Below are positions 8,629 through 55,460 of a DNA stretch of 64,000 nucleotides, in pieces. How positions within the stretch are numbered: the stretch's first letter is position 1; the number at the start of each line of letters is the position of its first letter. The translations under genes and the position numbers were made by a program. Below the pieces are notes generated by a model, which did no database searches, was not told the DNA's origin, and saw nothing but the letters and a program-made list of their open reading frames with translations. The stretch covers positions 28,530,759 to 28,594,758 of the forward strand of contig OY783204.1 in NCBI GenBank assembly GCA_963678705.1, written 5' to 3'. The DNA is from Panorpa germanica. Lineage: Eukaryota > Arthropoda > Insecta > Mecoptera > Panorpidae.

Positions 8629-8662
8629 GCATACCTGAAACAAAAGAAAAATAATTAGAGAC
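8629..8662 (-). promoter_or_regulatory. Candidate recursive splice site 1 (ratchet point)
   Basis: Read on the minus strand, a CTCTAAT branch-site-like motif is followed by TATTTTTCTTTTGTTTCAG and then directly by GTATGCG. The junction lies between 8635 and 8634. A 3' splice site fused to a 5' splice site with no exon between is the defining structure of recursive splicing in long insect introns. The donor half (GTATGC) is weaker than at the other two sites, and I see no strong second donor just downstream. It is the most 3' of three such sites on this strand. Confidence 0.35.
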
Positions 8663-9807
8663 AATGTTATAACGATACATTTCTATAAGGGTATTTTAAT
8701 GTACATACATAAACAACTTAAGCATGTCGGAGTAGTAGTAATTATTCATTACAAACTTAACTTTTATGATATGTAAATTAATTAGAGAAAATTATTGAAA
8801 GTCATAAAATGTCATATTTGAATGTAATGTTTACAAAAGCATTGACTTAGCAATTTTGCAACCCTTAAGTTTGACAAGCGAGCAGGTGTATATTATCAAG
8901 GGTATGAGAGAGTGGAAACATTGCACAAACACATCTATAGAAGGGGTTGAAAAGTAATGAAAAGTTTGGTACAAACAAACGAAAAGAAATATGAATTTAA
9001 ATTTGTATATCTTTTTTAATTTTAACACGAGGATCTTATCATTTAAGAACAAAACGATGGCGTTGTTTTTCTAGCCGAGTATTAAAGAAGGTTAACATTT
9101 TTAGTACATGCAGTCAATACACATGTAACTGTTAGCTATTAACACAAATTTTTATTAAATAAGAAAAGGTCTTTTTGTGAAGTATTTATGCTGAAACTTG
9201 CCTTGTTACTCTACTAAACAAAACTCTAAATATTTAAATGATAAGTTTAAATATATTGAGACAAAAACTATTAATACATATAATGTTTATGTATTGTTTT
9301 AATGAGCATATTTAATTAACATATATAAAATCCGAATGCTGCAATTAAAAATATTAAATTAATTAAATAAGTAATAAATAATTTATATTATATGTAATGC
9401 AGATTTCGACGGAGTGTACGTCGCCGTGTGCCGGATTTCTCATTAGTCATGGCTTTGAATTGTGCAAAGTTTTTACCACCCTCTTAACACCACCCTTAGC
9501 CTAGTGTACAGTAATGTACAAAATTTAAGAAATAGAATATGCATATTATTTTTATAACTTTTATGTAAAATGAGATTCTCTCTTTCAATTGACTTAAAGT
9601 GGTAATTATTAACTGTGTGAGGTCGTTAGATTTTAGGGGGAAGTACTAATATTGTATTAGCTACATATAGTACACGTAGGATGAGATATAGATGGCTGGT
9701 TGAAGCAAAATAATCACTTGACAAGTGTAATTCGGAATCGGTTTTATTTAATCGGTTTAATCCACTGTAAACCGTAAACTAATAGTCTGTATGTTAAGAA
9801 ATTTTAA
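8663..9807. other. AT-rich non-coding sequence
   Basis: No gene recognised. A minus-strand open frame at 8831-9052 has no recognisable motif. A small CpG-bearing patch at 9405-9440 is unexplained. Confidence 0.55.
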
Positions 9808-9905
9808 CACATATCGTTTGAAGGTTGGTACTATCTAAAAATTATATGGAATATGTCATCCTACGGACTTATTGAGTGATGTGTTATATATGAAACTGAA
9901 CGAAA
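9808..9905 (-). mobile_element. Mariner 5'-untranslated fragment d
   Basis: The block ACACATATCGTTTGAAGGTT and the following TTGGTACTATC match, in reverse orientation, the sequence just upstream of the transposase start in fragment b (53657-53715). Similarity continues through TTATTGAGTGATGTGTTA, which pairs with bases near 53595-53615 of fragment b. No coding part is present. The piece lies on the wrong side of fragment c (10640-10790) to be its 5' region without a rearrangement, so it is probably a separate remnant. Confidence 0.5.
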
Positions 9906-10639
9906 CATATATTTAACAGTGTCTGTACTATGTACAACAGGCATGAACCCATAAGTTCACATTCTAAGTTATTAATATGAAGTATTATACGAGATGCAAA
10001 CAATACATATCTTGCATTATATTATTAGAATATATATTCATACATTAATTCACTACGAAAACTTGTACGTCAGAGGAGCCCGCGAATAACTAGGGTCAGG
10101 GGGCACGGGGTACAGCGATGGGAGGACGGACATATTGTTTGAGGTGGAGGAGTGATCTTATGAATGTTATAGGGACATGAATGTTTATTACTTGGCTCAA
10201 ATTATAGCGTACCTATAAAAAACGACAAGGGACAGAAAAACTCACTGAGACATGAGATATGGCCTTTGAAAGAACTTTACTTTATAACTCCCGGGTTATT
10301 AAAACGTGACTGCCAATATGTTGAGAAAATTTACTTTGGCTGCTGTTGTTGCTGAGGAAATATTCTTAGCAGAATATTATTATACTTGTACGATATTTTG
10401 TGGAATTTTATTTTAATATATTTTTTGATTAAAGCTTTATATTAAAAGTGAATTTTTAATATGTTTAAATTTAGCACTACCATCGGAAAGCTACTCGTAT
10501 TTTTAGATTATCTGTCTTTTGGAATCGTTTGACTGGATCTAGATATGTTTCATATACTTTTAAAAGAAACTTGATGCAATTTCATAACATTTAGAAAGCA
10601 TATTTTATAATTACTACATTCATAAAGAATTTACGTTCC
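9906..10639. other. Non-coding sequence
   Basis: No gene recognised. A GC-richer strip at 10075-10125 is unexplained; the rest is AT-rich. Confidence 0.55.
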
Positions 10640-10790
10640 GTATATTAATTTATATGGCTTGTCAAACCTTTGCTTTGCTTGAACGATATTCTTTCCCTTT
10701 ATCAGCACACGAAATTCAGATATTTTCATTGCTTTGAAAATTACAAAAGTAGCTTCACTGAAACCACTTTAAGGTCCACAGCACACGAGG
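10640..10790 (-). pseudogene. Mariner transposase, 5' fragment c
   Basis: On the minus strand a start at 10729-10727 opens a frame reading MKISEFRVLIK, then GKNIVQAKQRFDKPY, ending at a stop near 10643. This aligns with the mariner N-terminal pattern EFRVLIKHCFLMGKNTVQAKQWLDKHY with five residues deleted after LIK. The bases upstream of the start encode the same ATFVIFK stretch seen in fragments a and b. Only about the first 30 of some 340 codons remain and there is no catalytic domain. It is too short for the usual ORF length cut-off but is the clearest of the four mariner starts. Confidence 0.65.
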
Positions 10791-10808
10791 CAACTGGTTG
10801 CAAATCTT

Positions 10809-10852
10809 AGCCCCGAATCTACCCGAACCGAATGAGACTGGAACTGTGTTGT
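10809..10852 (+). repeat. Dispersed repeat R, copy 1
   Basis: About 43 bp beginning AGCCCCGAATCTACCCGAAC match the reverse complement of 28981-29023 with roughly three mismatches. It sits next to mariner fragment c. It may be the end of a non-autonomous transposon whose remainder I cannot trace. An open frame at 10798-11262 runs through it but shows no known domain and is probably chance. Confidence 0.5.
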
Positions 10853-11631
10853 TGTGCAACTCGATGAAATTTAACAGCACTTTTATATACCATCCTCCAC
10901 ACATGTTTAGAACAACTGTTTCACAATTTAACACATACAGCAGCTTCCCTAGCAGGAAGCCAAGTGGCCCAAAGCAGTCGTTAAATATCTACAATTTGTT
11001 CCTCCACCGTTCTATGCACTCACATATATCTACCATTGCATATATGCTAGTACATTTTGTCTCACATTTTGGGGACTTTTACTTTGTACTTGAAATTGTG
11101 TGCGCCAAAGAGAACCGAGAGCCGAGACCAGAGAACCACACAAGCTGTGTCAACATATTATTTTTGTTTTTGCAGCGGTGTCTTTTATCTGCTTGTTCAC
11201 ATTTTATCTTTTATGCGGGAGTGAATGACTCGGGGTGGACAAGGGACAGAGGAGGGAGGTAGCATGCACTGTTGCACATGCGGGATCACATGAATATAAT
11301 ACATTTCATAAGAGACATATGTCACTCAATGATAACATCATATAACCAGGTCTTTTAATAACATGTACTTGAAAGTGAGGTTATGATAATATGTAAGTGA
11401 AGGTAGATGACTCTAGAAGCAACAGATTGTTTTATTCTCTCGTTGTATGTATAAAAGGATGCTCTATTCATCTGCTGTGTGATTTAGATGAAGTAATTTG
11501 TAATAGCAACTGCACCGAGTGTAATATACAATGCTCTAGCTGATATACTAACATTTTGTTCATTTGTAATTCTCAGAACGTAATAAGTAATCTATTTTAT
11601 TTATTGTTGTTTGTGAATATAAACTAATGCC
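10853..11631. other. Non-coding sequence
   Basis: Covered mostly by a 154-codon frame without an ATG start or recognisable domain, which I do not accept as a gene. No RNA gene or mobile element recognised. Confidence 0.45.
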
Positions 11632-12017
11632 TGTTTCACACCAGAGAGGCAGTTCAATATAACACGAAGAAAAACACCAAAGAGAAAGTTCTTAAAACAT
11701 TTTTGTCTTTAAAAACTGTTTTAGTAAACAAAATCCCATCCCAAAAACCCATCTGAAGTTGGTAAGATCAAAGGAAAACACGTTTGTTGTTTTTTAGTCT
11801 TGGTTTGAACACGCAGTTTTGTTTTTTGTGCACATTTGCACTTGCCAGTTGTTGTTTATCATGTTTATAATTTTTATAAGACACACAGAAAAACACAAAA
11901 AACAAAACCATTAAAACAGTCTGTTTTCGAAACTGTTTTAAAATAAAACAAAACATGTTTTTGCTTTGTTTCTTTAAAAGAATACTGTTTTCAAAACTGT
12001 CTCTCTAGTATGAAACC
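11632..12017. mobile_element. MITE-like element with about 22-bp terminal inverted repeats
   Basis: The left end reads TGTTTCACACCAGAGAGGCA (from 11632) and the right end, reverse-complemented, reads GGTTTCATACTAGAGAGACA (from 12017), matching at most positions. The interior is 386 bp, non-coding, and rich in short ACTGTTTT / AAAACAGT blocks repeated in both directions, so a transcript could fold extensively. No transposase is encoded. No clear target-site duplication was seen, so the superfamily is not assigned. The minus-strand frame at 11768-11956 inside it is not credible. Confidence 0.55.
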
Positions 12018-13695
12018 GACATAAGAATTCAGGCTAAGGCAATAGAGACATATGGAAAGGTACATTGTCGTCTTGATTTTTCTGTAAAGCTACTGAAACA
12101 AAATTACTTGAACTAAAAAAATTAGCATCAGAAAACGTCGTGTTTGAGGAATAAAGGTGCCATTCATCAGAATGCCGATACAGATGGCATGAAATGTATT
12201 CCAATTATGAATAAAGTTTTCAAATATTGAATTCATCATTAGATTAGTGTCATCTATAAGTCATTAAATTCAAATCTAGAACGGTAATAAAAGTGTCATC
12301 CTAGTAGCGTGTGTGTGTGTGTCAAGTGCGAGTGGGGGAGTAGATGGAGAAGGAAAGTGCACAACCAGCTGTCAGTTGCCATGACGCTTTAATTCATGGT
12401 GTTTAAATTTATAGTATTAAATGGCCCCTGCGTTTATAGACTGTGGACGACACATTAACGGAGGATTCATATGAACAATCAGTGTTAATATACATAATTT
12501 ATCTTTATAGCATGGGAAATAATTCAGTGTCAAATGATTATATATATATTTATGTATATATATATACATATATAACTTCTATAAAATATACTATGGGTTC
12601 AGTAATTCATAATTTTTAATTACAAACGAAATTTGAATTGTTCGAATAACCTCCATATGTCAATTACTTGTTAAATATGACTCAATATATGTTTTCCCCA
12701 CTTTTCATTACGTTTTCCAATAATTTCAAAATGTCAATATCAATTATAATTTAATAGCTTTCACACATTGTTATTTGTACGTACATATATATGGGGCAAT
12801 ATTCGTTAACACGTACTGAAAAATCATCTCCTTTTCTCTCTCTCTCTTTTATAAAATATATTTCCAATAAAATGGGGAAATTTTTAAAGGGCGTACAATA
12901 TGCAATATATAAAACGATGGGAAGGGAAAGAGAGGGGTTGATTTTTAACAATGGATATTTCGTTCCTTTATGGCGTGGTAAATCGTTAAATCGTTGAATT
13001 GAAATCATGCCATTCTGACTTTACAATGACCTCATAACAGAGGGTAGAAACCTTCTTTGCACTAATATTAATTTGTTTGAATATAAATTATTTTTATCGA
13101 CGAAGGTGCTATCAAGAATTTTAGATAATATTTTTCTAAATGTATAGTTCAAGATCTGCAGGTTGCCAAGCTCTGATGCATGGAATAAACTTTAGTTTAG
13201 TAATGTTGTATGTTCATGTTTACTAGGGTACTGTAGTGATTTGTTCGGAGCAAACGCAGTTGTGAATGAATCGCTCAGGATTCGAGATCGGTGGTGCAAC
13301 GATATAATGGCCTAGCATCCCGCGGTCGTGGTCCAGGGGTTCGCAAAGCATCCAGTACTGCGTGTCAGATGTGAATATGTGAATAATGAATTTTCTATTA
13401 CATTTGCTTTGAATAATAACCCCGTGAATTGACACACGACTGACATGACACGCCGTCATGTAATATGAATGTTCGTCGTTTGAATCGCGTGAGCCCTAGT
13501 TTCATTTAATGTGATATATACGCATGCGTTATGCACTTGCAACTATATGGGGTTGTGAATATAAATATAGCGGCATTATACTTTTATTAAATGAAATAAT
13601 ATAAAGAATTTCTTTATAAATTACGTTTTGTAAAAGATATTTAAAATAGAAGAAAAATGACCAAGAAACTCGAAGCTCTTTGGCTTTTTGTAAAG
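12018..13695. other. Non-coding sequence with one odd open frame
   Basis: Mostly AT-rich, with a (TA)-rich stretch near 12540-12572. The frame at 13223-13459 (minus, 78 codons) lies in a GC-richer, CpG-containing patch and is discussed under findings. No gene is claimed. Confidence 0.5.
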
Positions 13696-14060
13696 CCGGT
13701 ATCAATCAACGTTTGATCCAAATGCTTGTGAGTCAAATATTGGAAGATTAATATGGCAAGTTCCTGCTACACGGTGGAACGAATGTTTGATCCGAGTGTT
13801 TTATTTATTTTATTAATTTGTTGATATTATTGACACTGACACTGTTTAACAAAAACTTTCAAGTAAATAAAGAAACTTTCAAGTATAAAACCTTCCTTTG
13901 TTGGACGATTCGTGCAGCAGTGCATGATATGTGGATCAAGTGAGTGTTGGGAATAGAAGAATTCCTTTTAACGCAGGTCAAACGACCGACAACAGCTCGA
14001 ACTTCTTCCAACGTGGACGTTGGACACATGACATTTGACACACTTAGTTTCAGCATCGAT
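13696..14060 (-). mobile_element. Element X, copy 1 (non-autonomous DNA transposon)
   Basis: The region matches 53823-54126 in reverse complement. Shared blocks include CACGGTGGAACGAATGTTTG near 13770, GACACTGACACTGTTTAACA near 13830 and CCTTCCTTTGTTGGACGATT near 13892. This copy has about 100 extra bases (about 13925-14020) that the other copy lacks. Strand is given as minus relative to copy 2. A 65-codon minus-strand frame at 13859-14056 crosses the extra segment; it could be a scrap of transposase, but no motif is recognisable. Confidence 0.6.
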
Positions 14061-16095
14061 CACACAAGATATCTTAACTATTTTCGAGAGCCACAGTGTA
14101 CGACCCTGGAGCTCTATTTACATCGAAATTCAATAAATGTCCAGCTAACGCAGTTACGTGTTATTAAGGTTTATCTAACCTGTAAAAGTTACCTGTTACG
14201 TAAACAAAATTACCTATAATAGTAAAAGAGGAATAGATGACGGAAAAAGTGAACAAGAGGAGAAATAATTAGAGATACCATTAGTTTAAGATTAATTGAA
14301 CGAGCTCAAATATAGATTAAAATAGTTTTAAGTTTAATTTAAGTAAAAATGAAATGTAATTTAGATAAATTAATGTAATGGTATACAATACTAGATATAG
14401 TTGAAATACTGAGTCCGATTGCAACGGCAAATGTACACTGAATATGAATAACTTATCAAATTAAATACAAGCCAATTATTTATTAAAAAAATGGCACGTG
14501 GCAATGTTATTTAATATGTGAAATGGATACTCTATATCTGTAGTGGATTCACAATGATTTTGAATGTATATTACATATATAATATGGTGCCGCTGTATTA
14601 AAAATCGATGTATTTGCAATAAAAACATAATTTTTGCACTGCGCACGCTCGGTGCATCCCAATTTCGTTTCCGTAGTCATTCACAACAAAGGACGTAGTG
14701 GAACTTATGCTCAGCTATTGTCAAAGTCTAACAATATAGTTGTAAACTAAAAACATTATTTATAGATGCGAAAAACAGTCGCGTAAGCTACAACAGAATT
14801 AGCTATACACAGTATAACAAGCATAAATTTACATGAATACTTAATCGGGTGTATTTTTTATGGATATGTTAAATTTTGATGGTTATTTTTATGAATTGCG
14901 ATATTTATTACTGGAGAGATAATTTATGAATTTAATTTACTTAATTATATAGCATTTATATGTAAATTTATTGATTTTCTGCAGATATAAAAAGAATAAT
15001 CGCATATTCTTTGCTTTCTTTTAAATTTAACTTTCATCATTAAACTTAATAAAGTATTAATTTGTTCAAAAATAAAAGATAAACATCAAGAGAATGAAAG
15101 AAGAAGAAGAAGAGGATAAAGTAATAGAGATGTGTAATCAGCCCAAATCCAGGATATAGTACGCCATAGCAGGGCGGCAAAGGAAATCATCTTCAAAGCC
15201 TGATAAAATATAGAAGACAGGTGGTTGAAAGCTTCGTGATGAAGTGGACAAATAGGAAAAGAGTGTCGACAGACGCGAACACTGTGGGAACCTTGTAAGG
15301 GTTAGAATGTGACGTCACAGTATCTGACAGTAAAGGCAGACTTACAGCACTTTCATAAAAAACGATCTAATTATTAATCCCTTATAAAACAAATAGCGCG
15401 GTTGAATAAAAACATTTTATAAGCAACAACCCTTTTAAAATATTTTTTATAAAAAAAAAACGACACCCTAAAAAAACATTTAATAAACACCCAAAACTTT
15501 CACCCTTTAATATAAGAGGGTATTTAACTTTGAAAAAGTGACATCTGTATTATAAAACCTGAAATGTAATAAATAGATTCGCATCATAAAGTAGGAATAT
15601 TTTCTATATATAGGTTATGAAAAGTAAATATAATTATTTCTGATCAGTTATGAAATTTTCTATTAAAATATTGTTTTTGTTATAAAATGCCCGGAAGGCA
15701 AATTTTAATAATATTTTTGTTGTTCGTTACTGGTTGATAAATAAGTTTGTCAATATGCAACAAACAAAGGAAGATTTGTAGGGGCTTAAAACAATTACCC
15801 CCGTGTAGAAATATAATAAGGCAATAACCTTCATATGATGTTGACTGTAGTGTAGTTTTATTAGAAATAAAATAATAATTTGTGCAGGTATGAGTAATGA
15901 AGGGTAGCCCCCCCTCTCTTAATCCAAAACGTTGTATTAATCAATGCCGATAACTCCATGGCCTAGTTTCCTGCTTTCTACTCGTAGATATCCTTGCTTT
16001 ATATCAAGGTGACCGTATTTCGTCCTTTATATATAAGTTACTGTCCCAGTTGTTTCATTTACCACCCTGAGCTTCCATTACCGCCCTTATCTCTT
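14061..16095. other. Non-coding sequence
   Basis: No gene recognised. The stretch at 15100-15310 is GC-richer than its surroundings and contains a CRE palindrome (listed separately). It may be an old repeat, but I cannot place it. Confidence 0.55.
15310..15317. promoter_or_regulatory. CRE palindrome TGACGTCA
   Basis: Exact match to the CREB/ATF consensus, one of five in the window. The match is visible; function is inferred. Confidence 0.25.
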
Positions 16096-16128
16096 TGTAA
16101 ACAATAAACACTGATTGGTCACGTGACC
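16096..16128. promoter_or_regulatory. Compact cluster of forkhead, CCAAT and CACGTG motifs
   Basis: Within 33 bp lie TGTAAACA (16096-16103, forkhead consensus), an overlapping AACAAT (16100-16105, SOX core), ATTGG (16114-16118, inverted CCAAT box) and the 12-bp palindrome GGTCACGTGACC (16117-16128). The palindrome contains GTCACGTGAC, the extended E-box preferred by MITF/TFE and USF-type bHLH-Zip factors. The density is unusual for such AT-rich DNA and is compatible with an enhancer. No expression evidence is available. Confidence 0.35.
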
Positions 16129-16817
16129 GGTGACATCTCATTTCATGGATTTACGTCTCCCACACACGAACTGCTGAGAACAATCAATGTGAACAAAGAA
16201 CATTTTCTGATAATGTATAAAGCTCACAATAGAGCTTTTTTTTAAACTCAAATACCCTATTTATTTTTTGTCTAAAGCTTTAAGAGTAAGATCTTTATAC
16301 TCGTAAGACTAATGCTTTTTGGATAGCCTTGTGTATTATTAATTGTTTTTGTTAAATATAACAAATTCTGGTAACATTATTCAAGTTTCTAACACAGGGT
16401 GTTCTACGATCAACAGAAATAACACTTTTAAAAGCTCTACTACTTAAAAGCTCTGCTACTATATTTAAATAAAAGGCAGACACGGGCTTTGTCCACATTA
16501 CGCATGCGTTTAACTTTGAAATGGTAGCGCTGGCATGACACACGATAATTAAAAGTGTATGTTAATTTGTACAAGTAATTTAACATCGTATTTTATGCTT
16601 TTTTATCATTGTAATGAATCTAGCTTTAATTAAATTTGACATTAGATTAGATTAGTTGTAGTTTAGTTAAAGTTTTATGTAATAGATGGCAGAGATGAAG
16701 ATGTAATTAAATAGTTTTAATCACGATAGATTTGTGCGTGGTATTTTAACAATTTAAACTAATTACTTGAAATGATTTATTTTTATGCATATTTCCTCTT
16801 GCTCTACCTTTCCTAAG

Positions 16818-16895
16818 TACATAATATTATTGGAAAAGAGAGGACGCGAAAAAATGTGTGATTGTGGAAAGGAAGATGAGAAATTGGAGCATATT
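16818..16895 (+). pseudogene. LINE ORF2 C-terminal zinc-finger fragment
   Basis: An open stretch reads YIILLEKRGREKMCDCGKED and continues EKLEH. The C-x-C-x8-H spacing is that of the zinc knuckle near the C-terminus of Jockey/I/R1-type retrotransposon ORF2. In intact copies the His is followed after four residues by a last Cys. Here the frame is cut two residues after the His by MITE M1. Only about 26 codons remain. The flank after the MITE (17018-17160) contains GATTGTAAAACCGGA, reminiscent of the GTAAAGCCG block at the 3' end of LINE family B, so it may be the tail of the same insertion. Confidence 0.5.
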
Positions 16896-17017
16896 AATTG
16901 CCTTACAAATAAACCTATTATAAAATTTTTACCAGGTATAAACTAAAAATATGCCTGACAGGACGGGCTTTATACTTGGTATAAATTTTATACCAGGCTT
17001 ATTTGTAAGGCGGTTAG
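16894..17017. mobile_element. MITE M, copy 1
   Basis: A 124-bp inverted-repeat element. Its right end, GTAAGGCGGTTAG, is the exact reverse complement of the left end of copy 2 (CTAACCGCCTTAC at 22612). The arms CCTTACAAATAAACCT...TTATAAAATTT and their complements make up most of its length, so it is nearly a perfect foldback apart from a short centre around GCCTGACAGGACGGGC. It has no coding capacity. It sits inside the LINE finger fragment ending at 16895. Confidence 0.7.
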
Positions 17018-19026
17018 AGTATTAGGCGTATTAAGAGTATTAAGAGAAGAAGATAAATGAGAGGCAGATATATTTTAATTATAAATTAGTTTTTACTTTC
17101 AAAATAGGTTAAATTTAAATAAGATTAAATAGAACGTAAAGGAGATTGTAAAACCGGAACTATATATGCATAATACTTGTACAGTAAATCGGTGGAAGAG
17201 TATCAATATCTTATTGAACTCTTGTTCTTAAAAAAGTTGCCTACGACTCGTATGGTCAGAGAATTCTCAATCGCAGTTATTTAACGACTACTATAATCAA
17301 TGTAATCGATAAAATACCAAACAAATTCGCATGTTTTGCCTGTGTCTGTGTGTGTGTGCTTACAATTCTTTGTACAATAAAGAAAGAGTACGGGTAAAGT
17401 TTAAAGTATACCTCTTCAACAAAAAAATATGCAACAAGATTTTATGCAATAGTATTTAAATGAAAATCAACGTAATTAAATTACCTTCTTTGAATGGATG
17501 AATATAATACCTGTTTATATTGTTATAGTATACCTATACAGGTATTCCTTTACTTTTACCTGGTGTTTTACCGTCTACTTTATTCATTATACTCTCAGAG
17601 CGATACTATGCATCTAGTACACCAGGTATAGTGCTATAACACTGCAACGCCCGCGTCGTATACCTAACTAGACCTGGAGCATCATAGATGGGTGCTTATA
17701 GTCTGCATGATTAAACTAATTAAATTTTTGTTCAACAAATTGTTATTAGCTCTGGTATATATAATAATATGCACAGGCTTGTTTTAGTACGAGTATCAAA
17801 AGCATTGAAGGAAAATAATTGGTTTTAATGAAATATTATATTTAATATCTTTTTCTATCTTTAATGTGTCTTAAAGCTGCTTAAAGGAACGGTATAATTA
17901 ATTATTTTACGATGATTAAAAAATGTATGACGATTAAACAATGAACTGAAGCATATACCAATTCTTCTAATGAATAAAAATATAACCTGTTTCGTGTGAA
18001 AGGAATAAAATTGTAAATGGCAACTATATGTAATAGTGCTAATAAATAATGTTGCTTTTTGTAAGATTAGTAGGAAAGTGTGTTTTGAAATATTTGCGTT
18101 AATGTTCTTTATACCACTTAAAGGCAATATTTTACGTTACAATTTAAGTTGATGGAATAGGTTTATTTGCTCGTTGGCCACACCTGATATAAAGATCACA
18201 AGATTAAGATTATACCATAAGATGAAGCGCTTAATAATAAGAATATTATAATATCGTAATTACCTATTAGAGAATCTAATTAATTTTGAATTAAATTATT
18301 ATAAGTAAATAAACTAAGATTTTAAACTTTTCTTAATAATACTTAAAATAGATAATATGTTATTTAATTTTATATAGAAAATTTCTAACATGATTTTCAT
18401 TGTGGAAAATGATATTTATAATGAAAATATAATTGCATTTTCACTCTTTCTATGATAATCTTTAATATTATAACGTACGAGTAAGAAATGAAAATTTCAA
18501 GATGTTATACGATGCTTTGTGTATGATATTCTTAATATAAAACTTAAGAAAAGTGTTGGATAGAATCAGGTTAGATTGAAGTGGAACTTACCACTTAATA
18601 ACGGAACATAAAAACAAAGTCAATACAAAATAATATCTGTTAAAACATAAAATATTTATAGTTAAAAACAAAACTGAAAATTTGATATATTAAAAAACTA
18701 CTACATTTTAGTTTTTACTGGTAAATATGACATGGATTTTTCCATTTACAAAGTTGGAAAAACATTTCCGTAAAAACAAATTGAGATAAATATAGAGTTA
18801 AAACGTTTCAACTAAAAATACAAGTAGAACTAATGTATAAATACTTATAATTCGTTTATTAAATAAAAACTATTTTTCTCGGTATTTCAAGTAAATATGA
18901 AACTACCCTATTACACAGTACAGAGTATGAGTCGTCTACCATAACACAGTTCCGGCACATATCTCAATAAAGTTAAAAAGTTTAAACTGTCTGCCCCATC
19001 GTGACGTAACTAAATATCTTTATCTC
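17018..19026. other. Non-coding sequence
   Basis: 17018-17160 may be 3'-untranslated LINE sequence. From there on the region is AT-rich. No gene recognised, including the low-complexity minus-strand frame at 17861-18127. Confidence 0.5.
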
Positions 19027-19262
19027 TCTACGTGGTTCGTAGTTCGTAGCCCGTAGCTCGTAGCGCTGTAGAACCATCATGAATGGGGGTTACGGTTTTT
19101 GAAGCTACTATACAGCTATATTATATGGGATGTTTCTTATAATGTCTGTAACATAGTCGTTAGCCCGGCATGTGGCAACGAAAAGAGTTACGATGTATGA
19201 TTCTTCTAAGAATGCTGTTACGAGTGAAGCTACGGGGTACGGCGCTACGCCGCTACGTCATG
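19027..19262. mobile_element. CGTAG-rich foldback/MITE-like element
   Basis: The left end holds about five tandem 7-mers of the form YYCGTAG (GTTCGTAGTTCGTAGCCCG and onward, 19033-19068). The right end (19220-19256) holds the complementary series built on CTACG (GCTACGGGGTACGGCGCTAC and onward). Such inverted subterminal repeat arrays around a non-coding centre are typical of foldback or hAT-like MITEs. A target duplication was not identified. This is one of the most CpG-rich stretches of the window. Confidence 0.5.
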
Positions 19263-19898: not shown

Positions 19899-19915
19899 AA
19901 TCAGCTGATACTAAT

Positions 19916-43800: not shown

Positions 43801-46800
43801 AGAAAACAGATGCTGACGAGCACCGACACACCACCCAACCAACGAGAATAATATGGTTGATGAAGAAAAGATAAGGAGAACGGAAAATAGATGAGGAACG
43901 GAACGAGAGGAGAGTGGGGGGATGGAACTTTAACTGGAAAAGAGACGAATGACTAGCTGACGTTGAACCAAAGGCATACGTTAGAAGAGTAAGGGTCTGT
44001 GGGGGGTGGGATGTTAGCAAGATCTTCAAAGGAATTCTCTTGTCTTATGGTTCGTTAATTTTAAGACCATATTGTCAAGAGCAGTGTTGGACTGGAATGA
44101 AATTACGAAGAACATCACCTATCGATTGTAAGTAGAGGTTGACCACCGCAAAGATCTATTGCTAACAGTAAATAACAGAAGTTCGTAGTCTTAATGTTGC
44201 TGCATGCTTGTGCTAAGAATTAACAAAGCAAGATACTTGTACTAAAGAAGAAAAATATCTCGCTAAACACAGGTACGTATATTTTAGATTTACATTATTT
44301 ATAACATTTTTTAGGTTACATAATAAAAATTATCTTTGATGTATGCGATTCCTTCTCCCTTATCTCGTATGTACATTTGTGCTAAAACGTAAGACTTGTG
44401 AACCCCAGTAATTGTTAAATTCTCTTCCAACTCTGTCTCAAAATATGCACAATGTGTCACAGAACATAGCTGTCGCGCAATTCTGAAGAATATTGTTCAT
44501 CAGCCATCAGATCAGACCGTCGCGTCTGTCTGCCAGCATCTTGTAATATTTGGTGCTAGAAATCATTTCGCGTGAAATTCTCGTCATTGTCAAGGACCGT
44601 AAAACGCTAATGAATTGTAAATAGAACAATAGGGTTAATTAGAAATAAGTTCATTTAAATATTTTCAGTTAATATAAAGTAATTGTGTTTCAAAAAGAAG
44701 AATAAGTTGAAGCAGCAAAAAGGGTTGAAAATATATATAAAAAAGGGTAATTTTCTTTATATTAAAGATATAAAACAAATAACCTAGATTTTCTTTTTTA
44801 AATTAAAAATATTGTTCAAATAGACTTTCAAGTTTTTGTTTAGAAAATTTGTTTTAAAATGGGGTACAACAATATGGGATATTTAACAATTGTTATTCAA
44901 GAAGAATCGATTAATAATAGGAAAGAGTTCTATATTCCTTTTGTTTTTTCAATCTACTACTTCTAATGTTCAAAAGAAATTTACAATTTTCAAAGAAATA
45001 CAAATGAGTAATACTAATAAATTAAAAAGAGATAGAAAGTTGTAATTTGGTATTCTACATTGAATATTTGTATAATATAACACAAAGCTCGTTGGAATTT
45101 GTGTTTTTCTCTGTTTCATTTAATTAAACGCATTATATAATTACTAATAAACAAAAGTGATCAATATTTCAGTTAATTAATCAGACCTTATATTTCAATA
45201 ATGTCATTTCTGTATTTTACACCATGATTTGTGTTCAGCTAATTAATTTACAACATACGTAATTAAATAATTATATTTAAAATAAAAGCGTCGATCTGGT
45301 TTAATAATTGACGCCTCGGCCAACGCAATAAATCAAATTAATTAGTACTATGTTTTTATAACATGTTTTTCATTGAGTGCATCTGCAAATGAATGTGTGT
45401 GTGCGTGTGTCCGGATCATATACTACATGTGGAAAACACACAGTGAGCTTTGAAATTCGATACTGCGTCCATAGACTTCAAACAGTGATATTTGAGCGTT
45501 GTTATTTATGTGATGCGATGTACGTACAAGAGAACCGATGTAATGAATGCGGCGCTGTTCGATTGATCCTAAATTAAATTTAACAAGCTCTAACGTAAAA
45601 TGTAGATTTTATTTCATAAATATTGAAAAAACTATACAGTATTATAATGTATCCAGTGACGGATTTAACAGTAGGCGCACAATTCGAGTCGTTTTTATGT
45701 TTTAATGAGAGAAGGTGTATATATATTCCAAACTATGATGTATGTTTAATAACTAAGTATATGCACTTTTATATATAGTCGAAATACTCGTAGTTAAGTT
45801 TACAAAACGAAAAGCAAGAAAAAAAAGGGAGCAACATTTTCTTCTGCGCTTAAGGCTTTAACAGACCTAAAACTGAATGTATATAGTTTTAAGTAATTAA
45901 AATCGAAAGCAATTTTCAAAAACATTGATCGAGCTATCATACAAAATTTAGTACCAAACATATAAGAATATAAACGATTCCGATAATGATTCTTGTAAAA
46001 AGTATCTAAATACATTTTCACAGTAACTGTAATATAAATATAAAAAGTGTACATAATTGTAACTAAATACAATTTTTTCTAAGTGTAAATATATGATCTA
46101 TATTTGAAAACGTATATAGTACTCTATATCTGTATCTAAATACAAAGTGTAACAATATTAACTAAAACAATACATATAATAATCATACAAATAATTAAAT
46201 TAATGCAGAGAAAGCTCATACAAAAGTTAAGACTTTCAAAATGTTGAAGAAAAGTTGATATTCTTGAATAAAACTAAAAATACAGTGTGGTAAAGTTTAC
46301 GAGATAAAATTAACATATACACTAATTATATTTTAAAACTTAAGAAAACTTTACTAGGAGTATCTTTCTATGTATGTACATAGTTTGTAGACGTAATAAC
46401 TGTCTTACGTTTCAATTAATGAAAGTAATCATAACTTGTTAATTACTTTAGACTTAATTGTTAACTATAAAGAAAAACTAATGCATTGATGTTAAATGTG
46501 TCACTACTCTATTTGATTTCAGATGCATTTTGTCAGTTCTATCAACATCAGAGTGAAAAGTATCTAAAATTTGCAATCTCTTGGAGCACAGAAGCAGATA
46601 CATCGTTATAGTATTAACCGGGAAAATTACTGCTCCTAGATCATTAAACGTTCCTTTTTGTTATTCCAAGGACGAATACAAATGGCTAGAATTCTTCAAC
46701 ATGTTATCCTTAAAACATGTCATCGTTTTCCCTGATTTATTTGACAATTATGCCTTTCTTGCTTAAAACAATATGTGGCGACCTTCATTGTATATTCAGC

Positions 46801-48549
46801 AAATTATAAAACAACAAAGACGACTATAATTTCCAAGCTATTATTTTTAAAAAAGAAAAACATTGTAGTTTAGACCCCGGTAGGTTTATGTAAGTCTGCG
46901 TGTTATCTTTTTGTTTCAAAAGTTATTTTGTCATATAAATCCTTGCAGTTAAATATTAGGGATACCAGTAAAGTCATTCGATCCTTTCTGACTTTTATTC
47001 TAACAACTGTTTATTTAGGATACGACAATACATCGGATTCCCAATCCTTAGTCCTTTCTTATCATGCATTCATCCTTCAGAAGTTTGAAGAAAACATTGT
47101 TACCTACCACCCTTACCTAACCTACCCCTTTCACTAAAAACTCCCTACGTATTTTTTTTACTTTCAAACAAACATTACTGCTGGTGAATTCTTCAGGGAA
47201 TTAGCTAAATGTATTTTTCTGTCGTCTTCAGAACTGATCTGGTCAAAAAGGACAAAAGCAGAATAGTAAAGGTACATGAGATAGGATATAAGGATCAGAG
47301 AGACTACAAATGTCCTTACGAGCGGTTGGATGGACATTGCTTAAGAAAACAAAATGGAGCTGGTGGAAAAACAGAAGGATGTTGAGATATCTTTTACAAA
47401 TTCAAAGTGAAAGTATGTCAGGATGTATTTATTGAAGCTCTAAAGTTTCAAAACGGGTGGACGATGAATTATTCTCTTTTAGCTGACACGATATGTATAA
47501 AAGGACTATGAAATCAAAGGCTAATTCGGTAGGGCTATAAAAGTATGTAGAATTGTTCATATACGACACGAATATGAAAATGAACGTTGTTATATATTCA
47601 AAAGACATTATTTTGACAAAACATTCAAAAAATAAATATGTCTGACGAGTTTTAATATAATATTTAATTAAATTTTGTTTCAGCTTTTAGTTTTTTACAA
47701 TCACTGCTCCTCTAAAGCTGCTCCAAAGCTTTCAAATGTCTAGACAATGTTATTATAAAATAAAACAGAAAAACAATTTTAAAGCTGTTATTACTCCAAT
47801 TATGAAAATGACAATATTTTGCACCCTGAATTATAATTTGTCACGTCGCGTCGTCTGTTAATGTATAGCGTGACTACTCCCTCCCTCTCTTACCCTTAAA
47901 TTTAATATTGATACATAGTTTTGCACCCCTATTTTACATTCAGTAGCAAGATACCTTGCAGTTAGTTTATTAGTTAACAAAAATAACTAAAACGAACTAG
48001 GACTCGAATAGGGGTTACAAATAAAGGGATGAAATAATAGCTCTTGTAGAACACCTGCTCGTGTAATTTGTTACAAAGTTGCAGTGTTACAAGTAATTTA
48101 AGAACGTAACTATATATATAAAACTACCCCTTTGTGAATTACTTCGCAACCTATTGTTAGAATTTCTTTAAATTTTGTGTTATTATTTTCATAGAGATAT
48201 TGGATTTTATGAATTAATTGTTTTAATTAAAATAAGTTAATTTAAGAAGGGAGAATCTTATACGGACAAATTAAATTCGGCAGATTGCGCTTCTAGGGAA
48301 TTGTAACCGTTTGTTTGTTGCCCCAAAGAATTGCAGGCGCTTTCATATTTAATTACTGTTAAAAAGTTTTTATAAATTTTAATAATTATCGTAGGATGCC
48401 ATTTCAGGACTTAATTAAACGAAATAATAAATAGATACGGTTGTGTCATCGAAAATATGTCGCGCAAGCGAAATTTTATTGTAAACCTATTGTTAAATCT
48501 ATAAATAATACATCGCAATATAAATAAATTTAAATTAAAAAACAAGTAT
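40831..48549. other. Long AT-rich non-coding stretch
   Basis: No gene recognised in 7.7 kb. Open frames such as 41506-41886, 42392-42622, 43799-44029, 45800-46072 and 46581-46766 are low in complexity or lack any known motif. 43850-44010 is purine-rich on +. An AAAATGGCG motif is at 42201. Confidence 0.55.
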
Positions 48550-49060
48550 AAAGTATCATTCTCACTCACTACTTAAATTTTATTTTGTATTTAATTTAAA
48601 TTGTTTAGCATATGGCAATACGCGTAGTCATTCACAGTATCATTTTTAATTTAAATTATTTTTTAAGTTTTTTTAGAACCTTACAAGGTCCAATGTTTTA
48701 AATTAAAAATATTAAATTAGGAAAAACTATATTATATTATAACCTCCAAAATGTGACAATCTGTTAAAATGCAGAAGGATTTATTTTTGAAAAAAGTTTA
48801 ATGTCAGTTTTTGAAAAATATAGAAGTGAAAACAATTTCTATTATTAATTGTTATTAAAAATAGCAATTTTATTTATTTCACATACAATTTTGTCGAACT
48901 GTCAAAATTTATATTACTAACGATGCATACGCACCAACTAAATTAACTAAACTTAAATTAAAACACAAATGTGAAAAGGAATGCTTAAATGAAAATCTGA
49001 AATCTAGTTTACAATATTAAATAAATTAAATATCAAAACAGTGAGTGGGAATGAGGCTTT
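48550..49060 (-). mobile_element. Element Y, copy 2 (MITE-like)
   Basis: The more complete copy, about 511 bp. The left end AAAGTATCATTCTCACTCAC(T) and the reverse-complemented right end AAAGCCTCATTCCCACTCAC(T) give a 21-bp terminal inverted repeat with three mismatches. It is non-coding and AT-rich. Its minus orientation is relative to copy 1. The flanks show at most a TA at each side, so the superfamily is not fixed. Confidence 0.75.
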
Positions 49061-50719
49061 ACTGACTTAATAATAATAAAACTAAATTATTAAAAGTATG
49101 TCAAGATTTCAGGTTGAGTTTTAAGATTTAGACTATCAAATTTATCAAAGAAAAACGATGTTTTTCAAAAGTTTAACTGGTGTAGCCCCTTAAAGAGAAC
49201 ACGGCTGTTATTACAAAATCACGAATGACTAAAATATCACGGTGAAAGTTATTATATTACAAACGATAAGTAATATAATTTGCATATTCAAATGAAGCGA
49301 AATGACTTAATAAAATCTAAGTCTTTTAGTGCTCATTAATGGAATACGACCATTACTGCATTGCGCGCGCAATTAATTACTAAGCCTGTCTTTTGATGTA
49401 TGTGCTAAACCATCTGGTATCCTCATAAGTCGACACTGCGCGTGTTAAATATTTCTTTATACCTCTAAATCATTAACCCCTGTATGGTTCATCCCCTACG
49501 CGTAATCTAAAAACATAGGAGAGAGTGGATGGAGATAGATTTAGAAAGTACAAATGCATAATGTGAACTATAACACATTTCCTATTGTTGCAGAAATATT
49601 TTGAAAATATTTAATATTTATTTACAATGAGATTTATACGATTTTGTGACCCGTTCACACCAATGATTGGTAATCAAATCAATACTGCACATTCACACAC
49701 ATTTCTAGGGGTGGTGGGTGAAGGGTGAAGGGAGGAGTAGGTGATGCTGTGGAATGGGGTCACATAACGTTCTATAGGGTTAATACGTATGCGAAGCACG
49801 TGTGGATATTCCCACCCCTCATACAAAAACCCAAACCACTCATAAAATAAGGGTCGCCCTTTTGAACTTACAACCTTGTGGCCCGCTCTGATTGACTGAC
49901 TATTTTTACTCTATGAAAAATATTTTGACATAAAAGTGAAAATATGTTTTAACGTAAATACTTATTTTGCATAATTTGTTTAGTGGGCTTATTCTTAAAT
50001 ATAGTGGGAACAATAAGAAATAGAAACATATGTAAGATTCATTGCAAAGTTAGAATGAGAACATTAGAGTATAATGCCGATTTTTACAAGATAAGATACA
50101 GTACTCCCTTCTGTAGGGACACTTAATATGGTGGCTTTGCAAAATGGCAACCATTTAAAAATGGCGGCAACGTGTGTTTAGTATTTGTTATACAACTCCG
50201 CTAATATCTACTTGATTTTCTTTGCTTCCTTGCTTGTTTGCTTCCTTGTTGTAATAATAACTCTGGCCAAAATTTCCAAACCAACGTTTTTCGTATAAAA
50301 TTAAAATTAACCTTCCAAATATATTATAACCTCAAAAAACATCGCAAGAAATATATGCTAAATGAAACAGTACATTTGATAGTGATTTAGGAATACTCGC
50401 CAACAGTAAATATCAAATTCACCTAATAATGCAGGGGTGATAAATGCACTAATATAAGTGACGTAAAGAATTATACAATTAAAAACATAGAAGCTGTACC
50501 AATTCCATTATCCCTGAAACATTGCGCCTACAGTAATACAAAAGGCGTGCCAGATGCAACCATTATAACAAATAATATTTCATAAAATTACGTCATTTAC
50601 AACAATTATATACACTTATATATTTTAATAATGGTAAGTAGTCATTAGAGCCCTTAGTACGACAGCCCTTATGGATAATATGACACACAGAACAACGTAA
50701 AATCATTAACACTGCACTG
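49061..50719. other. AT-rich non-coding sequence
   Basis: No gene recognised. An AAAATGGCG motif is at 50158. Confidence 0.55.
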
Positions 50720-51110
50720 GGTGTTTGGATTTTAGCAGAGGCCATGGTTTTAGGTTATAATGGGGGGTAGTTATCCCTCTATCGGTGGGTGGTTTAACTA
50801 GCTACCCTATTTCTATGGTTTGATACTAACCGGGTTTTCACCAGGGTTTCGACCAGTCTAGGCAACGAGCCCTAGAGCCTCAAATCGTCCACTAGCTCTG
50901 GTTTTGTGGTTATACAGGAAATAGTTTGATGGGGTAGCATCACCCCATGGGTTTCGAATTTAGTGATATTATTATTGATTTATTTTATAACATTTATAGT
51001 TAAAAAAATCTATACACTCAGGTGATAATCAAAAAACTCAGATATGTGTGACAAAACTCAGAAGTGGGAGCCTTTGGAGTATTGGAAATAAATAAATACT
51101 ACTACTATTT
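50720..51110 (+). mobile_element. Possible retroposon 3' end with ACT-repeat tail
   Basis: A GC-richer stretch (50740-50960) fades into an AT-rich part that ends in GGAAATAAATAAATACTACT followed by ACTATTT. Overlapping AATAAA signals plus a short trinucleotide run are common at the 3' ends of non-LTR elements and SINEs. ATGGGGT (50929-50935) and ACCCCAT (50942-50948) form a perfect 7-bp stem. No coding frame or second copy was found. Confidence 0.28.
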
Positions 51111-51300
51111 AATAATTACATTATTTCTATTAATTATAATTAAAAAATCATCATGTAATTACAATAAATTAATATTATAAATAAAATATAATTATTTCAA
51201 ATCTAAAATGATTTTGTAATAATTAAATAAATAAAAATCAATGAAATAAACTAATGAAGGACCATTTTGTGGTACTTTTGCGTGAAATGTAACTAAATGA

Positions 51301-51460
51301 TTGCCATCACCAATCAAGCCGCTCACATACCACCTCCACCCCATTCACGACCTCCTGGTGACACTGGTGACAGTAGTCAATGGTCCGTTGGCTGGTCGTC
51401 TGGCTAACGGCTGGTTATCGAACGTGGTGACCGAGATCACTAGGATGCCACAATGCTAAC
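51301..51460. other. GC-rich island, open on both strands
   Basis: About 160 bases of clearly higher GC content. On + a 50-codon frame without ATG runs up to TAA at about 51456, and on - a frame of similar length is also open. CTGGTGACA occurs twice in tandem near 51355-51373 and GTGGTGACC follows near 51424. It could be an enhancer with repeated GGTGAC half-sites or a small exon; the sequence does not decide. Confidence 0.3.
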
Positions 51461-52272
51461 TGGCTTCATTAGTGCCAATGAAAATTAATTTACATAGAAA
51501 ATAACGCGCGTCGAGTATTTTCCACTTTAACGTTCTTAATATATTCCGTTTAGCAATTTTTAACAGTTATATGAAATGTACACGCTAATAGTTATTAGCC
51601 AAACGGTCTCAATTGACGGATATCGATAGTAAAATGTCCTTCATATGTCCTGAAACTAATTTATAACCTGTATAATGATTTCCAATAAAACTGAAGCAAA
51701 AAAAAAGAAGAAAAACAATAAACCAACCCAAAAACATATCTATTAACAGCTGGAACGTTAAACACCCCAGAGTAAAGAAAGGAGTATCACCTTGTACGCG
51801 TCAAGAGACCTGGAGAACACAATATACGTCTTAGGAGGGTATTAAACTAGTGATATTTATGACCGTAAGGTGCGCTACTTTAGGGGTGTGTTTATATGTT
51901 TTTCTTTACAAGAAACAATCTTTGACCTGACTTATAACATGCTGCGCTTGTGCTGGTGGTAATGAATTATTAGGGATGAAGAATATTCGCATGTAACTAA
52001 CAACATTTTCTTGTTTAACTTGTAATTATACAGCGGTTTTAGATGTAGGAGTTTGGAACGATATCGTTTGCCGTGTTGAGTTAAAAATAGCGTCACATGA
52101 AGTGGAAATATTACACGGTTCATATTCATAATTCGTCTTTAAGTGAACAATCTTGTGATGCTTTTATTAATGAAGGTGCTGTCTTCAAGATCGTAGTACT
52201 CCAATACCTCACAAATCATCATAATTTTCATGATGTCTAATTTCATAATCTAGTTATCATAACATTAATTAT
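51461..52272. other. Non-coding sequence
   Basis: No gene or element recognised. Confidence 0.55.
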
Positions 52273-52347
52273 GACATTCTGTGGCAATGTAGAAATACAG
52301 CAAAAACAAAGAATGAAAAAAATGGGCGGTGTTACAAACTGCAAGAC
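52273..52347 (+). pseudogene. LINE family A, finger fragment (copy 3)
   Basis: ACATTCTGTGGCAATGTAGA and the next 55 bases match the zinc-finger region of the 19.5-kb copy. The frame reads DILWQCRNTAKTKNE against HILWQCKNTAMARNE there, so the zinc-binding His has become Asp. Only about 25 codons survive and neither end of the element is present. Confidence 0.6.
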
Positions 52348-52456
52348 CGAAAATGCTCTAGAAAAAAACTGAGTAAAAAAATTATTAATTGAAAGGAGAA
52401 AAAGAGAAATAGAAAGGGGCTTCTCAGGGTTCCCATAGGACATCTTAGTCCGGCTC

Positions 52457-52464
52457 TGACGTCA
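52457..52464. promoter_or_regulatory. CRE palindrome TGACGTCA
   Basis: Exact CREB/ATF consensus, the fifth in the window, about 110 bases past the LINE A fragment. Motif match only. Confidence 0.25.
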
Positions 52465-53568
52465 GTTATAGAAATAAATCTCTATGCGACTAACTACTTC
52501 ATGAAGTTATCTCAACATTCAATTCTCTAAATGTAAATTATTTCACATAGAGACATAAATAGTGAAAGGGTAGTTAGCTGTTCGGCGAGTAGACTCACCC
52601 CTTCTTCCTATTACCCACTACTCGTACACCCAGTACGTGCATTTAGCAATGCTTTATATATATATCTATGTGTGTGACCGTTTGTGATTTTGTGCCTAAT
52701 CCACTTCCAGATTTACGAGCGTTTGTGACAGGTTGGCCAACGACGAGAGACCAATAAATTGCCTTCGTTAATGCAAAACATATTGCGATAAATGAATCCC
52801 ATTGATAATACTAGTAGTACGTACCATATACTATTTGGCCAACAGATATTCAATTTTCAAATTTATATTTGTAAGTAAATAAATAAAAACAATTTGGTTA
52901 ATATTGTCAGGGACAAGTAGTTTTTGTTTGTGGAGCTTGAACTAATTTTGAATTCAAATTGATATATAAAAAAAATATAATCTCTTTATTTTCGTTGCAA
53001 ATGATTTGAACTTTGATTAAATTTATTTCGAGCCCTAACTGCACGGCAACTAACTTTGAAATGCATGCTACTAGGTAGCACTAAACTGTATTCATCTTAA
53101 CTATAAGCATGCTCTTTAAATAGCACGTGTATATCCACGTTAACAATATTAAAACGAATCTCACTGCACTTTATTCACGTTATCAAAATAGTTGTAACCG
53201 GAAATCTCCGTTTGATCAAAACTACATACATACTCGTATATATGTACTTGAATTTAATAATTGATAATACAGATTTCATGTATGAGAGCATCCAATTGCC
53301 AGTGAATGGACCAGTTATTTACATTACGGTGCTCATTGTGTTAAAACAATAGATCATTTTGCATTATTCTGTTTAATTTAATATTATATTATCCTCTACA
53401 TACAAATTATTCATGAATTGTACAGGTACATGCGTTAACATTGTCATTAATTGTTGTTATATTGTTACAATAGCGTTAACCGATCTGTTATCAGTATTGT
53501 TAAAACTGTAGTAGTTTATTTAATATAGATTATAGTGTTTAAAAATTATATAGGGGTATTCATGTCAA
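52465..53568. other. AT-rich non-coding sequence
   Basis: Nothing recognised. Confidence 0.55.
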
Positions 53569-53820
53569 ATGAATTTAACATGTGTTTTAAATCGCGTAAC
53601 ATATCACTTAATAAATTCGTGGAATTACATACAGATGGCTATTAACAAATCCATGATGATGATTTATATTGATAGTACCAACTCTCAAACGATATGTGTC
53701 CAAATTTCATCACATTCTGACCATTACTTTATGAGTTATAGCAGTTTTAGCGACGCTACTTTTGTATTCTTGAAAACAATGGAAGAATCTGAATTTCGTG
53801 TGCTGGCAAAGCATTGTTAA
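53569..53820 (+). pseudogene. Mariner 5' end and transposase start, fragment b
   Basis: The likely transposase start is at 53779-53781, giving MEESEFRVLAKHC before a TAA at 53818-53820. The family pattern is MEKSEFRVLIKHCFL. The 200 bases before the ATG match fragments a and d and represent the mariner 5'-untranslated region. The upstream part of the open frame from 53569 is therefore not protein-coding in origin. The frame stops three bases before the terminal repeat of element X, suggesting that X insertion removed the rest of the transposase. The catalytic core is absent. Confidence 0.6.
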
Positions 53821-53822
53821 AG

Positions 53823-54126
53823 CCGGCTCCAAACGATGCTACGAACAACTTTAGACGCATCGTCTTGTAGATGCTGGAACTAAGTGTGTCCAACGTCATG
53901 TGTCTGCACGAATCGTCCAACAAAGGAAGGTTTTATACTTGAAAGTTTTTGTTAAACATTGTCAGTGTCAATAATATCAATAAATTTATAAAATAAATAA
54001 ATCACTCGGATCAAACATTCGTTCCACCGTGTAGTAGGAAACTTGCCATGTCAATCTTCCAATATTTGACTCAGAAGTTGGAGGCAAGCATTTGAATCAA
54101 ACGTTCACCACATCGTCTGGAGTCGG
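53823..54126 (+). mobile_element. Element X, copy 2 (non-autonomous DNA transposon)
   Basis: A 304-bp element with terminal inverted repeats CCGGCTCCAAACGATG (53823-53838) and, reverse-complemented from 54126, CCGACTCCAGACGATG (14 of 16 identical). The interior matches 13696-14060 in reverse complement but lacks about 100 bases present there. No transposase. TTAA-containing flanks on both sides are suggestive but not a clean duplication. Confidence 0.7.
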
Positions 54127-55371
54127 ATTAACATTTGTCCAGATGGAGCAAAGTTTTATCAACTTATTTCGCAAGTATTTCTTATTCAATTTAAGGCGAA
54201 ACAATTAAAAGAAATTTCAATGAACTAAAAAACGAAAGAACTAAGTCAACTGAGGACTCAAACACTTCATTTTTATCAATAATTAATAATTCATTCAAAG
54301 AAATTAACACACATATCTAAAGCTTTAAGCACAGGTATCATTAAAACTTTATTTGAGAAATGACTATAAGCTTTCCTACCCTTATATCTGACATAATTTG
54401 AGCAAAAACACTTATTTCAGTTAAAACACAACTTTAAAGCATAATACGTGCGTTATTTAAAGCCTATTAAAACAATGTAATATACTGTGTGTAATTATAA
54501 CGGCAACGCTGGTGTAATATCTGTACCACTAGTCCGTGCTTGGGACGCCGACGCCGACGTCGACGCTGTATGATGATTATACAGTCAGCGGGTGAATTGG
54601 ACGTCGAAAACGTCGTCTACACACGGTGGAAATAGGACTTTATGTTCACGAGTACCAGCGGTTTAGACGAAGTAAATGGGCGATTGTTATTAAGTATGTG
54701 TGTGTCTCTCTGTGTATTCAATCTGGTACAAAGACAATTACTGTTGTATTACACGGTTATTAATATATATGTATATATGGGATGTTATATGGAAGATCTA
54801 CTAAGAATATTAAATGGATGGTAACTTTTTTGCGGGATGTGTATGTAAAAGAATTGAGGTCTAATTGGCTTCCTTTAGAAACTAAAAAGAAATAGAAAAT
54901 GTCTAAATCTTAAGCACAAACCACATATTAAATAGACCATTCACTGATTCTAAGGTTCATTTCCTACTTCTTCTAAAGAAACTGTGTTGCAATCAAGTTT
55001 ACCACTTTCTAGCTTGCTAAAAGCTAATTCCATGATTCATTTTCTATCTGGGATATATATAATGCAGTCGTCTCAGACTCTTTAAGAAAGCCAATGTATT
55101 ATCTATAAAAAATTATAGGACATTTTTGAGTAAATAGGACAATTTTGTAAAAGAAAACTTGCAGTTTAACCGAAAGCGTACGACAGCCTATTAATGGAAA
55201 CTATTTGGATATTACACAGTATGAAAATATGTAATACACGCATTATATAAAATACAGATAACAATAATATACTATTTCTGTTTTCACACTGCAACTAATT
55301 CCTACCAAGATTTATTACAACGGGGTATAAAAAGGGTAACATTTAGGTAATAATAATAATAAATATGTTTT
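54127..55371. other. Non-coding sequence
   Basis: No gene recognised. A CpG-dense strip at 54541-54620 has tandem GACGCC/GACGTC units and a hairpin CTGTAT...ATACAG. Confidence 0.5.
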
Positions 55372-55460
55372 AACTTACAGTTAATCGATTCAACTCATCA
55401 AGCAAGCATAAATACTGAAGAAATCTTACCTGTAATAAAAAGAGAAAAGAATTAGTACAT
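55372..55460 (-). promoter_or_regulatory. Candidate recursive splice site 3 with short cryptic exon
   Basis: On the minus strand GTACTAAT, a near-ideal branch site, is followed by TCTTTTCTCTTTTTATTACAG and directly by GTAAGATT; the junction lies between 55430 and 55429. Fifty-one bases later (exon end 55379) comes a second, very strong donor ACT|GTAAGTT. Branch point, pyrimidine tract, fused acceptor/donor and a nearby competing donor together match the known layout of insect ratchet points with a recursive-splicing exon. It is the most 5' of the three in this window. Confidence 0.5.

Follow-up and report, generated by a model that had tools for sequence, protein, structure and literature searches.

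A predicted chain of seven recursive-splicing ratchet points in the 219-kb intron of a DOK7 homologue from Panorpa germanica

A 64,000-nucleotide (nt) stretch of the Panorpa germanica genome (assembly GCA_963678705.1, 464 Mb in 249 contigs; contig OY783204.1, here C1, positions 28530759-28594758; referred to below as the window) carries on its minus strand three sites at which a splice acceptor is fused directly to a splice donor. With a probability of roughly 0.9 these are considered genuine zero-length ratchet points, predicted from sequence to be numbers five to seven of a seven-site chain within a 219-kb intron of a DOK7 homologue. Most of what is known about recursive splicing (RS) comes from Drosophila; Duff 2015 reportedly describes intronic ratchet points and zero-nucleotide recursive splicing in this fly. 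For the same phenomena PMC2773006 cites Hatton 1998 and Burnette 2005, and according to PMC8605326 the fly ratchet point heads a cryptic exon (RS-exon) of ~50 nt, which ends at a second donor.

An earlier note on the window had placed the fused sites at minus-strand positions 55429, 22173 and 8634 (window numbering, first donor base), and all three positions are correct on re-reading. The putative ratchet point 5 of 7 reads CTTTTCTCTTTTTATTACAG|GTAAGA, with its acceptor half at 55430..55449 and its donor half at 55424..55429; point 6 reads GTCTTTTTGTTTTGTTTCAG|GTAAGA (22174..22193 and 22168..22173), and point 7 reads TTATTTTTCTTTTGTTTCAG|GTATGC (8635..8654 and 8629..8634), its donor being the weakest among the seven. 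A branch-site-like CTAAT lies upstream of two of them, as had been said (55455-55451 and 8658-8654), while the site at 22173 has TTAAT at 22198-22194; the steps between the sites, put at about 33 and 13.5 kb, measure 33,256 and 13,539 nt. The short consensus is indeed weak by count alone, as five YAGGTRAG words occur in the window against 4.41 expected, and it is the pyrimidine tracts that carry the argument: when the tract is scored, the three sites take ranks 1, 2 and 3 among the 303 AGGT sites on both strands of the window. The score covers 20 acceptor and 6 donor positions from general insect-like matrices, not fitted to the host genome, which were juxtaposed after the method given in PMC6110457. 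Markov models of order 1, 3 and 5 yield a mean of 0.04-0.09 sites per window that score at least as high as the lowest of these three, and none of 600 simulated windows contained three such sites.

The window forms the middle part of the predicted intron (window 1..64000, minus strand), as judged from the flanking exons, the intron ends and the identity of the protein. Flanking sequence was read for 200 kb on the high side of the window and 40 kb on the low side; the host gene was found by reading the 40 kb downstream, where minus-strand open frames match Dok-7 (3ml4), with E=7.2e-20 for one exon. Exon 1 (C1:28725268-28725212) begins with ATG; exon 2 is 46 nt long (TGG...GCAG, C1:28724082-28724037), lies between TTTTTTTTAG and GTAATA, and together with exon 1 supplies the missing start of the PH domain. 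These first two coding exons are located ~129 kb upstream of the window and the PH/PTB exons ~26 kb downstream. The second coding intron, of 219,125 nt, runs on the minus strand from the exon-2 donor (CAG|GTAATA, C1:28724036) to C1:28504912, is followed by the exon-3 acceptor TTTCAG|ATTGCC (C1:28504911, phase 1), and contains the entire window; its flanking exons share one strand, one contig and a compatible phase. The joined product of 220 residues (MVDISSIIEGTVKFRDGKK-WKSRWCVMRKLSPVA-DCLHLQ...) matches 3ml4 with E=3.7e-48 over 202 aligned residues, gapless at the joins including the 219-kb junction, and its next-best match is Dok-5 (E=1.2e-05). By this predicted product the host gene is a DOK7 homologue, with a PH domain followed by an IRS-type PTB domain, nearer to Dok-7 than to other Dok/FRS proteins; PF02174 (IRS) reaches 20.5 bits on one exon, just below the cut-off of 22, and the long C-terminal part has no Pfam match. 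Dok-7 is the vertebrate activator of MuSK; its PH and PTB-type regions, as in 3ml4, are the part that aligns with the insect product.

The scanning of open reading frames (ORFs) misses exons as short as 46 nt, and the claim that the window holds no DOK7 exon therefore rests on the gapless protein join. The locus may be misassembled, but both sides of the intron lie on one contig and on one strand. The earlier note had taken the window for a single intron tens of kb long: the window does lie wholly within one minus-strand intron, however the scale was too small, the intron having 219,125 nt and seven sites rather than three. Its expectation of minus-strand exons of one gene on both sides of the window was borne out by the DOK7 homologue, in sequence outside that available to its author. 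The first exon was also sought by DNA pattern: KWKSRW, which is split by an intron, hit 15 places and missed C1 altogether, whereas WKxRW located the exon. A Pfam search of 143 of the 147 listed ORFs (four antisense to Copia were omitted) gave RNase_H in 1/143, HTH_48 in 1/143 and nothing else, and a search with RRM_1 showed nothing but a gene on the plus strand at C1:28382412-28382996. A Hox gene such as Ubx, an idea drawn from the 51-nt RS-exon, was rejected as the host, as no homeodomain lies near the window among the 100 matches listed (150 of 155 candidates scored); none of these is on C1 beyond 20.1 Mb, and many are on contig C21.

Along the intron, seven of 535 sense-strand AGGT sites score at least 17.79, the value of the weakest given site, compared to none of 516 on the antisense strand; the ratio is 7 to 1 at a cut-off of 17 and 7 to 2 at 15, and Markov models give an expectation of 0.05, 0.16 and 0.16 sites on the sense strand. 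The first donor bases on C1 (minus strand) are 28701309, 28679008, 28659306, 28616329, 28586187, 28552931 and 28539392, of which 28586187 is window position 55429, 28552931 is 22173 and 28539392 is 8634. Further same-strand sites beyond the window are what the earlier reading would predict, and this prediction came true, since four of the seven lie outside it, in sequence unseen by the earlier reader. A matrix-free rule (at least 12 pyrimidines in 15, then NCAG|GTRWG) applied to the whole intron returns the same seven sense sites and no antisense site, and when such tracts are instead required to precede AGTG or GAGT as control words, the strictest NCAG rule returns 0 and 0. From exon 2 to exon 3 the segments measure 22.7, 22.3, 19.7, 43.0, 30.1, 33.3, 13.5 and 34.5 kb, a spacing more even than chance (coefficient of variation 0.32, P 0.002; smallest step P 0.009) by tests picked after the data had been seen. 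Judged by sequence, the seven sites display what defines intronic ratchet points: they are fused, lie in a long intron, occur on the sense strand and are non-randomly spaced. It could be argued that acceptor- and donor-like words abut by chance in an AT-rich intron with many T tracts, as 8-mers of the CAGGTAAG kind are about as frequent in the window as chance predicts (5 compared to 4.41), T tracts are frequent and one antisense site reaches 17.4; this is highly improbable given seven sense sites against no antisense site where 0.05-0.16 are expected, the empty AGTG and GAGT controls, downstream donors and even spacing that are independent of the motif score, and strand-coherent clustering across the genome.

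The sites could also be part of an unrelated minus-strand transcript, either a long non-coding RNA or a nested gene within the DOK7 locus, since a small minus-strand ORF upstream (in L027, C1:28774759-28784758) places other minus-strand genes nearby. The chain, however, begins after exon 2, stops before exon 3 and is evenly spaced over exactly this intron, and no fused site scoring above 12.7 was found in the 26 kb that separate exon 3 from the window or in the 14 kb beyond; an unrelated transcript is considered most improbable. The upstream ORF (L027:4697-5143, minus strand) is a 149-residue frame with a signal-peptide-like start and a cysteine-rich middle; Pfam yields nothing for it at 0.01, and in the PDB it has no convincing match.

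A donor of at least 7 bits lies 50, 51, 53, 55 or 63 nt downstream of five of the seven sites, whereas 2.9% of random positions and 3.4% of AGGT controls have one by the same criterion (binomial 9e-7). In the window the candidate cryptic RS-exons are a 51-nt segment at 55379..55429 followed by ACT|GTAAGT (donor 55378) and a 63-nt segment at 22111..22173 followed by GTG|GTATGT (donor 22110), each on the minus strand and with an in-phase stop; a possible third of 128 nt at 8507..8634, also minus-strand and stop-bearing, is followed by AAG|GTATGT (donor 8506) and is uncertain, as it exceeds the usual ~50 nt. Of the six RS-exon candidates with a clear donor in the chain, four contain an in-phase stop and two shift the frame. 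Once rebuilt at the end of exon 2, the donor would score 9.5-13.8 compared to 7.2 for exon 2's own, and is the stronger at all seven sites; with the unfitted matrix, the ratchet donor exceeds the RS-exon donor in five of seven.

These donors are also what would be seen if small exons of 51, 63 and 128 nt, ordinary or alternative, began at the sites with GTAAG/GTATG as their first bases by coincidence, and were present in some mature mRNAs much like the Ubx microexons; good donors stand 51 and 63 nt downstream at two of the three window sites, the downstream donor is the stronger at 28659306 and 28539392, and m1 and m2 of Ubx are expressed 51-nt RS-exons according to PMC8605326. As in Ubx m1 and m2, a ~50-nt exon would begin with its own donor, and the candidate at 55429 is likewise 51 nt long; unlike them, the present candidates have in-phase stops and are most likely cryptic, and the gene is not a Hox gene. 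The lengths of 51 and 63 nt are multiples of three, but both candidates carry a stop in phase 1 and so do not fit the expressed Ubx type. Small exons are considered very unlikely, because exon 2 sets phase 1 and all three window candidates have a stop in it, as do fly cryptic RS-exons in theirs, and because DOK7 would be disrupted after codon 35 if they were included.

Spread of the sites by a motif-carrying transposable element would be in keeping with the repeat-borne nature of some fused sites in this genome, namely at TTTCAGGTAAG loci and in a repeat with TTAATATTAATTTTGTACAG|GTGAGC found on both strands. It is exceedingly remote as an explanation of the chain: the flanks of 55429, 22173 and 8634 are single-copy, each of the three matching only itself in a genome search, and the flanks of all seven sites share stretches of at most 42 nt, mostly the motif itself. 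The dispersed repeat carrying TTAATATTAATTTTGTACAG|GTGAGC or near variants occurs at C1:28603850, 28660375 and 28744449 (minus strand) and at 28633088 and 28775164 (plus strand), and is a ready source of decoy fused sites.

For the seven ratchet points, a mechanism may be proposed in which polymerase would pass only ~20 kb before the first acceptor and the exon-2 donor would join the nearest downstream ratchet acceptor first, aided by exon definition of the ~50-nt cryptic RS-exon through its second donor. This joining would rebuild a stronger donor (e.g. CAG|GTATGT) at the exon end, which would be preferred over the RS-exon's own donor and would attack the next ratchet acceptor; after seven steps a final step of 34.5 kb would unite exons 2 and 3, and in eight rounds the intron would be cleared with no site sequence remaining in the mRNA. 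Use of the sites in vivo is presumed from their sequence, as are transcription and the order of the steps, whereas exon definition and donor competition would follow by analogy with Drosophila. Several observations weigh against ratchet points at these positions: the fourth-ranked site of the window, 57342 on the plus strand, scores 17.4 compared to 17.8, leaving a narrow gap at the cut-off, and is the one antisense site of the intron just below it; the steps of 13.5-43 kb exceed the 9-15 kb typical of flies according to PMC6110457; 28701309 and 28539392 have no good donor at 40-70 nt, the latter having one at 128 nt instead; and at 28659306 and 28539392 the RS-exon donor is slightly above the ratchet donor, which tells against simple donor competition. 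The antisense fused site at 57342 reads CACTCCCCCACAG|GTAAGT, its tract being C-rich, unlike those of the seven.

Five of the seven chain sites fit the motif TTTTGTTNCAGGTAWG, which occurs at 128 places genome-wide compared to 0 for its reversed control. Among the 100 of these places listed, neighbours within 150 kb share a strand in all 21 pairs (in all 15 once those of this locus are set aside); same-strand pairs number 22/23 at 250 kb, 25/29 at 500 kb and 27/57 beyond 500 kb. For the donor test, 20 other sites were sampled from same-strand groups, three further pairs being left out; a donor of at least 7 bits lies at 40-70 nt in 8/20, compared to 3.0% of positions drawn at random from the DOK7 intron, and one of at least 5 bits in 13/20 compared to 9.0% (Mann-Whitney P 3e-9). 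This downstream-donor signature indicates that the anatomy of the DOK7 intron recurs across the genome. The looser motif TTTCAGGTAAG, with 847 places compared to 142 reversed, was abandoned as a genome-wide marker, as four of its first eight loci belong to one repeat family and two more form a pair, and none of these eight has a donor of at least 7 bits within 150 nt; the stricter TTTTGTTNCAGGTAWG took its place. On C9:11148882-11429220 (minus strand; L043-L047), five TTTTGTTNCAGGTAWG sites lie on one strand within 280 kb, likely a second long ratchet chain in another gene, as judged from the motif.

At five of the seven sites (28701309, 28659306, 28616329, 28552931 and 28539392) the acceptor reads TTTTGTTNCAG, which has G at position -7 relative to the junction; genome-wide, G holds this position in 128 of 204 fused TTTTNTTNCAGGTAWG sites and A, C or T in 76, and by comparison 139 of 881 TTTTNTT words on the intron sense strand have G. 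It is tempting, if doubtful, to suppose that ratchet points carry an acceptor code of their own in this insect lineage, TTTTGTTNCAG|GTAWG, read by a dedicated factor that could thereby tell them from ordinary acceptors; candidate readers are an ELAV/Hu- or Sxl-like binder of U-rich RNA working with U2AF. The word TTTTGTTNCAG without a following G also exceeds its reversed control (4634 compared to 1868), and G may therefore be a feature that ordinary acceptors in this genome share.

The chain resembles the Drosophila system in its fused acceptor|donor, long intron, restriction to the sense strand and regular spacing, as well as in the donor near 50 nt downstream and in candidate exons that would break the frame. 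It differs in the insect and the gene, in a 219-kb intron with steps of 13.5-43 kb rather than 9-15 kb, and in the five of seven acceptors with G at -7. In bee, beetle and mosquito, large introns are enriched in ratchet-point sites (RP-sites) relative to the complementary strand, as given in Table 2 of PMC2773006, with 0.484 compared to 0.122 per 100 kb in the bee (ratio 4.0); in that survey sites are counted across introns, whereas here one chain is followed site by site, with its RS-exon donors and host gene. Among the papers searched, none mentions both recursive splicing and DOK7, and by title and abstract none is a site-by-site study for Apis mellifera or Hymenoptera. Seven ratchet points in a 219-kb intron with the same cryptic-exon geometry suggest that the mechanism known from flies extends to introns of several times the length, and that ratchet chains are predictable from sequence alone; the 128 places of the stringent motif, with none reversed, provide a ready list of loci for RNA tests. 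It is also predicted that small changes at these deep intronic sites would bring cryptic exons with stops into the mRNA of DOK7.

Upstream of the DOK7 start codon, minus-strand ratchet-like sites occur at C1 28738238, 28769361, 28791233, 28882903 and 28913424 (L027, L028 and L041-L042), with scores of 15.9, 17.9, 20.9, 15.7 and 18.6, respectively; a second donor follows 28791233 after 48 nt and 28882903 after 72 nt. The sequence of these sites suggests that another intron is removed recursively, perhaps one within the 5' untranslated region. Exons 1 and 2 are flanked by two Copia-type elements in opposite orientation (L021:1082-5059, minus strand; L022:5175-9137, plus strand), which are 99.86% identical over 4303 bp, have ends of ~122 bp that are identical, and are apparently recent insertions. 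Within the window, open frames with Cys/His motifs at 56071-56436 (plus strand), 63526-63819 (minus strand) and 19506-19826 (plus strand) are presumably relics of LINE-type elements; the window also contains a perfect 72-bp tandem duplication at 60837-60982 and a pure (TA)37.5 run at 58797-58871.

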